Source: a virus. Taken from it: a stretch of DNA of 29,595 bases. The position numbers and the translations under genes were made by a program. The notes under the pieces were generated by a model. It searched no databases and was not told the DNA's origin. It was given only the letters and a program-made list of their open reading frames with translations. Below are positions 17,348 through 29,457 of this stretch, piece by piece; position 1 is the stretch's first letter, and every line of letters begins with the position of its first letter. The stretch spans positions 1 through 29,595 of IMG/VR virus record IMGVR_UViG_3300046001_006535, one strand, 5' to 3'.

Positions 17348-17580
17348 GGTTTTGGCTGGTCGGTTTTGCATTTGGCCAAGAAACGATGCAGGAAGTTAAA
17401 GGAGTTTTCAGCGCGAGTCCCCCATTCGTCTTCTTTTCCGTTAGCCCAATTCACGCAGTCGTTTATTGCGGCGACGGCTTCGTCCCGTTCACGCCTCAGA
17501 ACACACATCGGTCTGACGCAGGCGTTGTGACAGGAATGGATGCCGCGTGACCACTGGTCTGTTTCTAGGGTGTCGCTCAT
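17344..17580 (-). CDS. 78-aa hypothetical protein (MSDTL start)
   Basis: Starts MSDTLETDQWSRGIHSCHNA at the ATG at 17580, inside a 23-bp repeat shared with the lipoprotein start at 18193. The chain is helical with four Cys (C17, C21, C26 and C39 by rough count) and several His, then EDEWGTRAENSFNFLHRFLA. Metal binding is possible but the spacing matches no known zinc fold. The gene overlaps both neighbours by 4 bases. Confidence 0.55.
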   Translation of the reverse strand: MSDTLETDQWSRGIHSCHNACVRPMCVLRRERDEAVAAINDCVNWANGKEDEWGTRAENSFNFLHRFLAKCKTDQPKP

Positions 17581-17592
17581 GGGTGTTTGGGG
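17570..17592. repeat. 23-bp direct repeat at a gene junction, copy 1
   Basis: Identical over 23 bases to 18181-18203. It spans the end of one gene (…PKHP, stop) and the overlapping start MSDTL of the next. The surrounding genes are not homologous. Confidence 0.85.
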
Positions 17593-17849
17593 TAGGGTTT
17601 GGATATCACGCTGTTCGCCGCACTCCTGAGCGTGCCGCCAAACTCGACCGGCACCGTTGCAGGATCGGGCGTGATGCAACGGAGAGTGTTGCCGTCGATC
17701 TCCAAGTCGAGCGATTGCCCATCCTTGCCAAGCGGATGGATGTAGATCGTGACAACCTTGTCAGATCGCTGCTTGGATGCGACGAGCCTGAACTCGGTCT
17801 TCATTCCTTCGTTGCCTTCTTTGGTGAGATAGTCTTGGAGTGTCGTCAT
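17577..17849 (-). CDS. 90-aa hypothetical protein
   Basis: Starts MTTLQDYLTKEGNEGMKTEF and ends KPYPKHP. Residues ~17-65 alternate like a small beta fold (FRLVASKQRSDKVVTIYIHP, LDLEIDGNTLRCITPD). The end overlaps the MSDTL start of the next gene in the 23-bp repeat. The start overlaps the tiny 35-aa frame at 17846-17953 by 4 bases. A second methionine at residue 16 (MKTEFRLVA) is an alternative start. Unknown function. Confidence 0.58.
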   Translation of the reverse strand: MTTLQDYLTKEGNEGMKTEFRLVASKQRSDKVVTIYIHPLGKDGQSLDLEIDGNTLRCITPDPATVPVEFGGTLRSAANSVISKPYPKHP

Positions 17850-17989: not shown

Positions 17990-18193
17990 CTACTCATGGT
18001 TGTGGCAGTTGCAGTCCGGGTGGTGGGTGATTCCGCCAGCGTAAGACCCGCCATCATATAGGATGAAGGAATGCCCCTCATATTGGATCGTGTGCAGCGC
18101 GGATGAATCGTCTTTATTGCTGCACCCCACAAGGCCGAACAAGACGGTGATGCCAACCCCGAGGGCGGCGATGTTTTTTAGTGTGTCGCTCAT
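17990..18193 (-). CDS. 67-aa early lipoprotein with His/Cys-rich tail
   Basis: Starts MSDTLKNIAALGVGITVLFG with lipobox LVGC (lipidated Cys at 24). The mature part includes TIQYEGHSFILYDGGSYAGG followed by ITHHPDCNCHNHE, which has two adjacent His, a Cys-x-Cys and two more His, suitable for metal binding. It lies among early genes, not in the lysis cassette, so an accessory function at the host envelope such as superinfection exclusion is possible. Such roles are known for some phage lipoproteins but not shown here. The first five residues come from the 23-bp repeat. Confidence 0.65.
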   Translation of the reverse strand: MSDTLKNIAALGVGITVLFGLVGCSNKDDSSALHTIQYEGHSFILYDGGSYAGGITHHPDCNCHNHE

Positions 18194-18203
18194 GGGTGTT
18201 TGG
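18181..18203. repeat. 23-bp direct repeat at a gene junction, copy 2
   Basis: Second copy of 17570-17592. It again overlaps a '…PKHP stop / MSDTL start' junction, here between the 67-aa gene at 18190-18393 and the lipoprotein. Confidence 0.85.
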
Positions 18204-18393
18204 GGCAGTGTCTGGTTTGGTCCTCAACGGCAACGTAAACATCGCAACGGTAGGTCATCCATGCTGCAAGCCTTTGCCCGTCCGGCGTAAACCAGACAAA
18301 AGAAGAATCGGGCGACTCAAACAGCGTTATGGTCCCGGTCATGCCGTACCGCAGGAGTCCAGTATCGTTTCCGACGTAGATGGCTCGTTTCAT
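18190..18393 (-). CDS. 67-aa hypothetical protein
   Basis: Starts MKRAIYVGNDTGLLRYGMTG and ends TRHCPKHP. The chain looks like a small all-beta protein: short strands with Gly/Asp turns (TITLFESPDSSFVWFTPDGQ, CDVYVAVEDQ). Overlaps both neighbours by 4 bases. Its last codons lie in the 23-bp repeat, although the rest is unlike the protein at 17577-17849 that shares this ending. Unknown function. Confidence 0.6.
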   Translation of the reverse strand: MKRAIYVGNDTGLLRYGMTGTITLFESPDSSFVWFTPDGQRLAAWMTYRCDVYVAVEDQTRHCPKHP

Positions 18394-23074: not shown

Positions 23075-23922
23075 GCTGGTGCTCCGCATTTTTCCAGCAA
23101 ACGGCGGGAACGTTCGACGGCTTCGTCATCCCCGCCCATGGAGCGGATCATCTCCTCCTGGGTGAACTCGCGGCCTTCGTTTTCGATGTAGGTGGTCGGG
23201 CCGGTCGATGCCCTGGCGAACGATCCCAGGAAGTCATCAGCCCGTTCAATCTCGGTCTGCCAGTTGTTCAGCAGGGTGATGGTGTCCTTCCGGTGATACC
23301 CCCACCCGGCCTCTCTTGCCTTGGCAAAAAGGGCTATGTCCCGGACGGCATCCTCTTCCGTGAGTTTCAGTTTCCGGTATGCCGTCAGTTCCTTGTCGGT
23401 CCATGCTGTTGTTTTCTTCCTGCCGATTTGCGTAAAGGCATGCAGCACAGAATCAGGGATTCCCTTTTTCCTCCCCGAAGGGGTTAAAGAGTTCTCTTCT
23501 TTCTTTCCATTCTCTTCTCTTCCTTCTTCGCAGGGAGGCGTCAGGTTGGCGTCAGTCACCTGACGCCTAGGTGCGCCCAAATGACATTCTGTCGTAAGTG
23601 GTTGAATCCAACCGACTTCCAGTAATTTAGGAATAGCATATTCAAACCATTTCAAGTCCCCGCGTGTCTTTAAGGAAATTGCCCGAAGTGACATCGGGGT
23701 GCCATCATCTCGCACCAGACTGCCACGCGGATGGCACTTGGATGCCACTTGGACTATGAGAATCCAAGCCGCGAAAATCTCCGCAGCCCGAGTATCCGCC
23801 ATGATTAATGAATACCCCTCCCCGTCATGACGGTTGGGAACAGACACCCAATGCAGTCGCTCCACCTGTCGGGAACGGTTGTTCTCGTAGTGCTTATCCC
23901 ATTCGATTATTTGGTAGCTCAT
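23071..23922 (-). CDS. replication initiator/helicase-loader-like protein
   Basis: A 283-aa protein. The N-terminal ~110 residues look like a winged-helix DNA-binding domain (RLHWVSVPNRHDGEGYSLIM; AISLKTRGDLKWFEYAIPKL; LEVGWIQPL). A charged linker follows (EEGREENGKKEENSLTPSGR), then a helical C-terminal part (AFTQIGRKKTTAWTDKELTA; ERADDFLGSFARAS) ending in short helices. Such DnaT/DnaD-like proteins precede the helicase in many phages and load it at the origin. The stop overlaps the primase-helicase start by 4 bases. No origin was recognised in this gene. Confidence 0.7.
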   Translation of the reverse strand: MSYQIIEWDKHYENNRSRQVERLHWVSVPNRHDGEGYSLIMADTRAAEIFAAWILIVQVASKCHPRGSLVRDDGTPMSLRAISLKTRGDLKWFEYAIPKLLEVGWIQPLTTECHLGAPRRQVTDANLTPPCEEGREENGKKEENSLTPSGRKKGIPDSVLHAFTQIGRKKTTAWTDKELTAYRKLKLTEEDAVRDIALFAKAREAGWGYHRKDTITLLNNWQTEIERADDFLGSFARASTGPTTYIENEGREFTQEEMIRSMGGDDEAVERSRRLLEKCGAPA

Positions 23923-24254
23923 GGTTCAAATTCAGTGGAGGCGAAAAATGCGTAAATCGGTTGGTCCATCATTTCAGGGATGGACTTCTGCCGAAGGAGT
24001 TCAGCGACGTTGCTGAGAATCTTCTGTTCGATGGCCTGCCGCTCCTCATGACAGAGAGGGCAGAGAGACATCACCAGCGCCCGTGGATACTCCCATGGCA
24101 GGCGACCTGTCTCGTAGTGGACGTGGTGGACTTCGAGATTGCAGCCGGGGCCTTGTTCCCGCCCGCATTCTTCGCACTTCCAGAGAGCCTCCACTTTGAT
24201 CCTGTGGGAGAACTCCTTCCACTGAGGCACGCTCAGTTTTTGAGCGTAGGACAT
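23919..24254 (-). CDS. HNH endonuclease-like protein
   Basis: The start is taken at MSYAQKLSVPQWKEFSHRIK (24254), which begins the conserved family pattern; an ATG at 24380 would add a Pro/Ser/Gly-rich segment that looks non-conserved. The chain shows CEECG (C27, C30), EVHHVHYETG (H43, H44) and LCPLCHEER (C65, C68, H69), the zinc and HNH positions. 'R-P/L-W-E-Y-P' follows the His pair, as in the family. The role could be nicking at packaging or at recombination intermediates; family members near terminases support packaging, but here it sits among replication genes. Confidence 0.75.
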   Translation of the reverse strand: MSYAQKLSVPQWKEFSHRIKVEALWKCEECGREQGPGCNLEVHHVHYETGRLPWEYPRALVMSLCPLCHEERQAIEQKILSNVAELLRQKSIPEMMDQPIYAFFASTEFEP

Positions 24255-24470
24255 TGTATGCCATTTTTGGCGATAGGCTGTTCCATACGAAGAAACCGCC
24301 GATCCGCTCCCCTCTCTGGACCCGACCGGAAAACCCGAAACGGAAGAAGGAAGCGGATGGGCGGTTTGGTTCGTTTTCATGCGGGTTTATTTCTATGAAT
24401 CGCCGGGGTCCAGTCGGCAGCTACGTTGTAGCCGTGGTCAGGATGCGGAGGCTCCCGGTGGAATCAAATG
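24255..24470 (-). other. 216-base spacer before the HNH gene
   Basis: No independent gene is supported here. The frame from the ATG at 24380 would extend the HNH protein at its N-terminus with ~42 low-complexity residues and cannot be excluded. No promoter boxes, terminator or repeats were recognised. This is the longest space without a firm gene in the window. Confidence 0.4.
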
Positions 24471-24779
24471 CTAGGTTTGATTATTTTTCAGATGCGGTGT
24501 TTTGATTTGAGAAACAATAGCAAGCCACTTGTGTGCGGTCTTCTGACAGACCCCGTGTTCCTCCATAATACGAGCAACCTTGGTCCCGGCCCTGATGCCC
24601 TTGGGGACGCCATAGCGTGCTCTGCTCGGCGGCTGCTTGACTGCCACATGCCAGCGGCGTGCGACCGAGAAGGCGACCCCGTAAAAGGCGGCGGTATGCG
24701 AGACGCGCAGCAATGGGGTAAACCCTTCTGGCAGTGGAGTGCGGGGACGGCCACGCACCGGCTTGCGTTGACGTGTCAT
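24471..24779 (-). CDS. tandem-HTH protein 2
   Basis: Starts MTRQRKPVRGRPRTPLPEGF (ATG at 24779), overlapping the next gene upstream by 4 bases. It has an AT-hook-like GRPR segment (10-13), then a first HTH-like unit SHTAAFYGVAFSVARRWHVA (27-46), and a second TKVARIMEEHGVCQKTAHKW (66-85). The linker 'GRPRxPxPxxFTPxL' and the 'A-x-x-Y-G-V-A-x-x-V-A-x-W' unit also occur in the neighbouring protein 24776-25189, so the two come from duplication of a module. Site-specific DNA binding is inferred. Not assigned to a named family. Confidence 0.65.
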   Translation of the reverse strand: MTRQRKPVRGRPRTPLPEGFTPLLRVSHTAAFYGVAFSVARRWHVAVKQPPSRARYGVPKGIRAGTKVARIMEEHGVCQKTAHKWLAIVSQIKTPHLKNNQT

Positions 24780-25189
24780 GCTTGGGTAAGCCTGAGTTGA
24801 CGGAGCCACACCGAGACGGTGCCTGGAGCGACTCCGTATTTTTTGGCGGTGGCTAATTGATTGATTTTTGGACGGCTCACCAAAACAGGAGTGAAGTCTT
24901 GGGGAATTGGTTTACGGGGCCTGCCTTTGCTGGTTTTTGGGACTCCGTAGACCTTGTGCCACCAAGCGGCGACGTGCACGGCGACTCCGTATTTATCGGC
25001 GGTCCCTTGCATGGTGGGTCCGGGGGAAAAGCCGGGAGGTGGGTCGAAGCGCACCCCCTTGTTGGAGATACCAGTGTGCTCAACGCGCAACTGCCCTATG
25101 CGCCACCGGCAGACTCCGGCTTTTTCGGCAATGTCCGTGTCTTTCTGATTCCAGTCGATACGTTTGGTCCAGTCTTTGGTTTGTTTCAT
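24776..25189 (-). CDS. tandem-HTH protein 1
   Basis: The 137-aa protein starting MKQTKDWTKRIDWNQKDTDI has three HTH-like units: KDTDIAEKAGVCRWRIGQLR (16-35), TADKYGVAVHVAAWWHKVYG (63-82) and ATAKKYGVAPGTVSVWLRQL (113-132), joined by Pro-rich linkers and one KGRPRKPIPQDFTPVL (88-103). Each unit has the 'A-x-x-Y/A-G-V-x-x-x-x-V' core of a short DNA-recognition helix. The next gene carries two more. Multiple half-sites in tandem suggest binding to an extended or repeated DNA sequence. The leader of this gene is A/C-rich and lies 30 bases from a copy of the CTCAAA-like motif. Confidence 0.65.
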   Translation of the reverse strand: MKQTKDWTKRIDWNQKDTDIAEKAGVCRWRIGQLRVEHTGISNKGVRFDPPPGFSPGPTMQGTADKYGVAVHVAAWWHKVYGVPKTSKGRPRKPIPQDFTPVLVSRPKINQLATAKKYGVAPGTVSVWLRQLRLTQA

Positions 25190-25224: not shown

Positions 25225-25569
25225 TTAAAGGGGTGAGACGCTGTCCCGGTGGCGCCAGAGTGAGTCCAAATCTTCTGGGGCCACGTCCAAGATGCCGGAC
25301 AGTTCGAGGTCGCCCTTCCGATGGATCCACCTTCCGTGGTAGCACCGGACCTCGAGCACCCGCCGCTCGTCTGCTGTGTAGCTGCTGAGTCTCCTCTTAC
25401 TGGCAGTCCGGCGTTTTGCGTCGGTCTCCCACTTCTTCCGCAGGCCCCTGATGGCCGGGGAATCTTGGAGGGTGGTGACGATGGTTACCGGAGGCGGTTC
25501 GGCTTCCCGGTAGACTTTTGGGCTACCGGGGAGGCTGCGGTTGGTGAGATACTTTGTGGGGATGGTCAT
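25225..25569 (-). CDS. 114-aa hypothetical protein
   Basis: Starts MTIPTKYLTNRSLPGSPKVY (ATG at 25569), overlapping the RuvC-like gene by 4 bases. A Pro-rich N-terminus is followed by a basic helical region (RGLRKKWETDAKRRTASKRR) and a charged helix (YTADERRVLEVRCYHGRWIH). The end DLELSGILDVAPEDLDSLWR is acidic/helical. Strong positive charge in the middle suggests nucleic-acid binding. It follows the resolvase gene and precedes the tandem-HTH gene; function unknown. Confidence 0.6.
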   Translation of the reverse strand: MTIPTKYLTNRSLPGSPKVYREAEPPPVTIVTTLQDSPAIRGLRKKWETDAKRRTASKRRLSSYTADERRVLEVRCYHGRWIHRKGDLELSGILDVAPEDLDSLWRHRDSVSPL

Positions 25570-26174
25570 GAGGGAGGGAGAGGGGGGTGTTTTGAGGTAA
25601 GGTGTGACGAATTGCGGCACAGTCCCCAGTGGGCGATGAGCGCGGCATCGATGAAACCGGTGTCTGGCTTGCTGCACCGCGGGGTCCGCAGCCAGTCCTG
25701 ATCCGGCCAGAGTCCGCGGGCGAGACGCTCGGCGTAGGCTTTGGTCTGACCGGTCGGCACTTTCCCAAGGAGAGGTCCTTGCCAAGTGTGGGACTGGATG
25801 CGGTGGGTGCAGCCGTGCAGGCCCAGCAGTTCGATGACTGCCATGATCTTCCCGTCGCTGTGCGCCATGGATTTCATGACGCTGGCCATGTCGGCATGAT
25901 CCGGGCAACTCTCAAAGTAAATGCTGGTGATCTTGTTGACCCCGATACCGACAAGGATGGCTTTCAGGGCCACGGCGTCGATCTCGTTGACGTCCGGGCG
26001 TTTGACCTTGCCCTTCTTGACCTTGCCAACGGCCAGCCTGGCGGAGATTTCCCGGTGGGCCAGCACGGCCCGCATCACCGGCAGCGCGATGAGATCAGCG
26101 ATGGGAAGACCGGGAACCTCCGACAGGACGGCGAGTGCGCCGGAGAGGCCATTGTCAATTCCGACGATACACAT
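25566..26174 (-). CDS. RuvC-like Holliday-junction resolvase
   Basis: A 202-aa nuclease that probably resolves branched DNA before packaging. The RNase-H-like fold is marked by a first Asp in IVGIDNGLSGALAVL (D7), a Glu after a strand in ITSIYFESCPDHADMASVM (E88), and C-terminal acids in KPDTGFIDAALIAHWG (D171, D176). These match the four metal-binding acids of RuvC-like resolvases. It overlaps the 114-aa gene and is near the Bet/exonuclease pair, in line with a recombination cluster. Start at the ATG at 26174; a longer upstream start is not supported. Confidence 0.82.
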   Translation of the reverse strand: MCIVGIDNGLSGALAVLSEVPGLPIADLIALPVMRAVLAHREISARLAVGKVKKGKVKRPDVNEIDAVALKAILVGIGVNKITSIYFESCPDHADMASVMKSMAHSDGKIMAVIELLGLHGCTHRIQSHTWQGPLLGKVPTGQTKAYAERLARGLWPDQDWLRTPRCSKPDTGFIDAALIAHWGLCRNSSHLTSKHPPLPPS

Positions 26175-26185
26175 GGTGGCTTGGA

Positions 26186-26392
26186 TTATTGTTCGGCGAC
26201 CGCAGGATTCTGTTCTGCCTCTTTTTCCAGAATGTCGGTGAACCGGAAGCGAACACATCGTTTTCCGAGTTCATACCACGGTATTTCTTTTGCATATCTC
26301 ATCCGGTTAATGAACTGGGTGCCTACTCCCCACCTTGTGGCGAGTTGCTTTGTGGTGATGAAGACTGGGTCTTGGTTTTGTTTGGGTGTCAT
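26186..26392 (-). CDS. MerR/excisionase-type HTH protein
   Basis: The 68-aa protein MTPKQNQDPVFITTKQLATR contains the pattern FITTKQLATRWGVGTQFINR followed by YELGKRCVRFRFTDI, the HTH_17 (MerR-like/Xis-like) layout in which 'T-x-x-x-L-A-x-x-x-G-V' is followed by a 'G-x-x-x-R-F-x' wing. These small proteins bind DNA in excision, conjugation or replication control. In phages they serve as excisionases or early regulators; no integrase is seen in this window, so excision cannot be assumed. It lies just before the resolvase gene. Confidence 0.78.
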   Translation of the reverse strand: MTPKQNQDPVFITTKQLATRWGVGTQFINRMRYAKEIPWYELGKRCVRFRFTDILEKEAEQNPAVAEQ

Positions 26393-29434: not shown

Positions 29435-29457
29435 CTAAAATAAATAATTTATTTTAG
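29435..29457. promoter_or_regulatory. 23-bp palindrome between divergent regulators
   Basis: CTAAAATAAAT (29435-29445), a central A, then ATTTATTTTAG (29447-29457): perfect 11-base arms. Direct repeats GTCAACTA flank it at 29430-29437 and 29482-29489. The AT-rich core between two divergent small DNA-binding genes suggests an operator overlapping both promoters. Confidence 0.7.

Follow-up and report, generated by a model that had tools for sequence, protein, structure and literature searches.

In Tn3 resolvase, helix E and the DNA-binding domain are connected by an AT-hook motif that docks into the minor groove (PMC9943657). Tc1/mariner transposases carry a GRPR AT-hook motif between their two HTHs (PMC8533490), and a plasmid protein of Euzebya pacifica (WP_216826637.1) contains six HTH_23 units, the first two of which are joined by a KGRPRAPMP linker. 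Here, two adjacent genes, P1 and P2, are compared with these systems. They lie in a 29,595-base virus record, referred to below as the window. With a probability of roughly 0.6, we read P1 and P2 as small, catalysis-free DNA-binding proteins in which a cassette of arm and HTH has been duplicated and which serve as an accessory regulator or architectural component of the early replication/recombination region. The genes and their arms are as follows.

24776..25189, minus strand, P1: 137 aa, three HTH-like units and one GRPRKPIPQDFTP arm
24471..24779, minus strand, P2: 102 aa, a GRPRTPLPEGFTP arm and two HTH-like units
24887..24925, minus strand, the sequence of the GRPR arm of P1 (GRPRKPIPQDFTP)
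24714..24752, minus strand, the sequence of the GRPR arm of P2 (GRPRTPLPEGFTP)

The lengths, coordinates, and adjacency of the two genes are exactly those of the preliminary description of this locus, and the linker GRPRxPxPxxFTPxL that it reported in both proteins is matched letter for letter, with exactly one copy in each of P1 and P2 (GRPRKPIPQDFTPVL, GRPRTPLPEGFTPLL). Together, the two proteins amount to five copies of one short HTH-like module. In P1, these units lie at aa ~13-39, ~57-84, and ~106-133, with the arm at aa 89-101; in P2, the arm at aa 10-22 is followed by units at aa ~23-48 and ~62-90. The two to three units previously assigned to each protein are thus borne out by the three of P1, while P2 has two and not three. 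Similarly, the motif A-x3-G-V-x4-V-x2-W described for the units is literal in P1 unit 3 only; the others show a relaxed form of it, and unit 1 of P1 is without the W. Among the 31 minus-strand genes, a regular-expression search for GRP[RK] returned P1, P2, and the N terminus of one endopeptidase-like gene.

The stop of P1 and the start of P2 share 4 nt, ATGA, and this overlap suggests that the two proteins are produced together. It could instead be proposed that a single ancestral five-HTH gene was split by a frameshift, leaving P1 and P2 as halves of one protein that are possibly still joined via frameshifting. The C terminus of P1 and the N terminus of P2 do meet at a natural HTH-linker-GRPR-HTH boundary, and a single protein with six HTHs is known in Euzebya, but coupled genes usually show just such an ATGA overlap with a proper ATG for the second gene, and no slippery heptamer was seen by eye before the P1 stop; we therefore consider such a split rather unlikely.

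The claim that one cassette was duplicated into two genes holds beyond chance. The local score of P1 against P2 is 75, a value reached by none of 5,000 shuffles, and BLASTP of this single pair gives an E value of 5e-7. For the unit pairs u3/v1 and u2/v1, again 0/5000 shuffles scored as high. When each unit was compared with a profile built from the others (leave-one-out), the numbers of shuffles reaching its score were 0, 0, 0, 0, and 7 of 2,000, the 7 being due to P1 unit 1 (u1), the weakest copy. Within P1, the repetition extends to the DNA level (repeat D18).

24981..25003, minus strand, repeat copy 1: codes TADKYGVA in P1 unit 2, 91% over 23 nt
24828..24850, minus strand, repeat copy 2: codes TAKKYGVA in P1 unit 3, 91% over 23 nt

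By a post hoc count, of eight identical residues, seven also share the codon. The 91% identity of the 23-nt repeat, together with the shared codons, suggests one fairly recent duplication or conversion within P1. The state of the two genes also bears on whether they are a decaying, functionless remnant of a recombinase or transposase, as the missing catalytic domain and the orphan status described below might imply. Both frames are open, however, and by codon usage each ranks best of six; all five units keep the frame, and both arms are conserved despite several synonymous differences. We regard decay as very improbable.

Judged by its sequence, the P1/P2 module is resolvase-tail-like. In a scan of 84,980 bacterial genomes with a two-unit profile, 53 stretches matched a peptide pattern, and 5 of the 53 encode relatives by tblastn. 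All five confirmed loci are serine-recombinase C termini (GVRFGRPRKPIPEDF...LGI..TF.RW), with tails in which GRPRKPxPExF is followed by an HTH. As the pattern itself selects for the arm, a check was made without it on 148 Clostridia genomes. Serine recombinases took the top two places; the best was in the seed genome G002, and the runner-up was in a different genome, G075. Below these came mainly HTH proteins of a generic kind, along with a few chance frames. Profile-profile comparison with 10 recombinase tails, six from plasmids and four from the profile-found genomes, aligned arm and HTH end to end with 92.2% probability and an E value of 5.9e-7, and 0/100 column shuffles were as good. When the motif-selected tails were omitted and the six plasmid tails used alone, P1 reached 13.1 bits, with the best shuffle at 10.2, whereas P2, at 9.9 bits, stayed under that best shuffle. 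Both proteins show a GRP[RK] arm, then P-x-x-F and an HTH, a correspondence that is weaker with the independent tails alone.

What P1 and P2 have in common with the serine recombinase C-terminal tail is therefore the arm GRPRxPxPxxF and the HTH behind it, and the profile alignment spans both. Their GRPR linkers resemble the AT-hook minor-groove arm ahead of the HTH in serine resolvases, and convergence could also be the origin of such an arrangement. Unlike serine recombinases, they consist of several tandem HTHs and show no match to the Resolvase catalytic domain (PF00239), which the relatives L068 (1.2e-27 in Pfam) and L080 do carry. Lacking this catalytic domain, neither P1 nor P2 is a serine recombinase. 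They also differ in that HTH_7 (PF02796) has no match anywhere in the window at E<=10; this family is likewise not listed for the L068 and L080 recombinases, and the recombinase tails, as P1 and P2 do, give weak HTH_23/HTH_28 matches only.

Another likeness is to the Euzebya protein, which has tandem HTHs, two of them joined via its KGRPRAPMP linker. P1 is 36% identical to it over 84 aa that span HTH-GRPR-HTH (E=7e-9 for the single pair), and the unit profiles of P1/P2 against it gave 96.7%; kinship is not proven, because the collection-wide tblastn E value is 1. Unlike P1 and P2, the Euzebya protein is encoded by one gene (299 aa) on a bacterial plasmid. P1 and P2 share with this type at least two HTH units per chain with proline-rich linkers, and a six-HTH protein with one GRPR linker gives their architecture a precedent. 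With the bipartite DNA-binding domain of the IS630-Tc1-mariner group, in which a GRPR AT-hook lies between two HTHs (PMC8533490), the likeness is one of arrangement. Unlike these transposases, P1 and P2 are without a DDE domain, and neither P1 (137 aa) nor P2 (102 aa) matched a DDE/D catalytic family.

Searches of Pfam, PHROGs, and NCBIfam gave P1 and P2 weak matches to generic HTH families, all under the cut-offs. The best Pfam scores were 16.3 bits to HTH_28 for P1 (curated cut-off, 25) and 15.3 bits to HTH_23 for P2 (curated cut-off, 24.6). An end-to-end match to a named family was found in none of the three collections, in keeping with the preliminary description. Its proposal of an unusual, unnamed multi-site family did not take into account that GRPR arm plus HTH is already the design of the serine-recombinase DNA-binding tail, nor that a multi-HTH protein with such a linker is found in Euzebya. 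P1 and P2 probably represent a modest orphan variation on an established DNA-binding design rather than a new kind of system. The AlphaFold2 single-sequence model of P2 (pLDDT 54.0) is mostly helical at low confidence, that of P1 (pLDDT 34.7) is without confidence, and searches of solved structures returned nothing relevant.

Profile scans excepted, our searches for relatives reach close relatives only. At that range, no close relatives of P1 and P2 were found in IMG/VR viral contigs, matches in INPHARED phages were at chance level only, no full-length P1 relative occurred among plasmids, and P1 gave four weak matches only in 300 genomes of the G002 phylum. The linker pattern has five matches in viral contigs, none with an HTH behind it, and the GRPR linker is therefore without visible viral relatives. 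RuvC-like resolvase relatives were also not found in the viral contigs. Two individual candidates were rejected: SfV orf40, whose match to P2 (E=0.7) falls at least in part beyond the annotated reading frame, and L036, a generic HTH that lies upstream of a gene resembling a terminase.

When these results are placed into genomic context, P1 and P2 form part of a minus-strand early block in the replication region, near rep283 and the primase-helicase. The window also matches SU10-type portal, Holliday-junction resolvase, primase-helicase, YqaJ-type exonuclease, and HNH families. An HNH nuclease gene (23919-24380) lies on the same strand 90 nt downstream of the pair. Many relatives of the primase-helicase (~50% identity) retain HNH, rep, and helicase in this order, and a YqaJ gene is often found further upstream, but no P1/P2-like gene was found in the related phage contigs with this block. 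This makes P1 and P2 an accessory pair and places the adjacent HNH gene in the core block. Immediately upstream of P1, positions 25225-25620 encode a small orphan protein for which Pfam gave no match and PHROG none at E<=0.01, and positions 26186-26392 encode a 68-aa HTH_17/excisionase-like protein (HTH_17 at 25.5 bits, cut-off 27; PHROG 66 at 2.2e-6).

This conserved order argues against the idea that DNA recognition by a homing-endonuclease-like element resides in P1 and P2 as detached subunits, partnering the HNH nuclease. The close spacing of the genes fits that idea, as does the finding that phage proteins matched by the Euzebya multi-HTH query are, where annotated, mostly HNH and GIY-YIG endonucleases, but a split homing endonuclease is disfavored because the HNH gene is a core component that relatives retain with no such partner, and we think it unlikely. 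It is also improbable that P1 and P2 are iteron-type origin-binding initiators of the phage. Their location in the replication block beside rep283 and the primase-helicase would suit initiators, but the conserved rep-helicase block of the relatives is without them, and no iteron or tandem arrays were found in the window. The latter result also leaves unsupported the repeated origin on which the proteins had been proposed to act.

The recurrent intergenic motifs, the other proposed target, are likewise unsupported. The best intergenic repeat, of 41 nt (17562-17602 and 18175-18215, 88%), takes in the leaders of two minus-strand ORFs together with their first codons (ATG AGC GAC ACC CT). The recurrent stretches thus seem closer to translation leaders than to binding sites. 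Leaders are A/C-rich, and a Shine-Dalgarno-like 4-mer precedes only 5/31 minus-strand genes, a make-up that may indicate a host initiating translation without Shine-Dalgarno sequences. No sigma-70-like promoter was found near the P1/P2 pair.

As accessory DNA-binding proteins, P1 and P2 would be made solely of tandem HTH modules, with a GRPR arm ahead of two of them, and the duplicated cassette would be related to, or resemble, serine-recombinase tails and multi-HTH proteins. By analogy with resolvases, each HTH would most likely recognize a short half-site through the major groove, with the GRPR arm placed in the neighboring AT-rich minor groove. Tandem modules would then provide avidity, so that three plus two modules could occupy one long composite site, in the manner of a regulator or architectural protein that binds multiple half-sites. 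A more specific version, in which a serine-recombinase tail has become a catalysis-free five-module reader spread over two coupled genes, with hetero-assembly on that composite site, is conceivable but doubtful. If true, it would show a resolvase-type DNA-binding tail multiplied into a modular phage DNA reader free of catalysis, and would offer a small natural case of tandem-HTH specificity; otherwise, P1 and P2 would be an orphan accessory DNA-binding pair of limited interest.

A further observation concerns positions 29435-29457, which form a perfect 23-nt A+T-rich palindrome (CTAAAATAAATAATTTATTTTAG) that is unique in the window and has 0 matches in 100 shuffles. It lies upstream of a small ORF (MKNTYIATQLSPEDF...) at the head of the early genes. 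Its composition makes it a possible early operator and a candidate target for AT-hook-like proteins.
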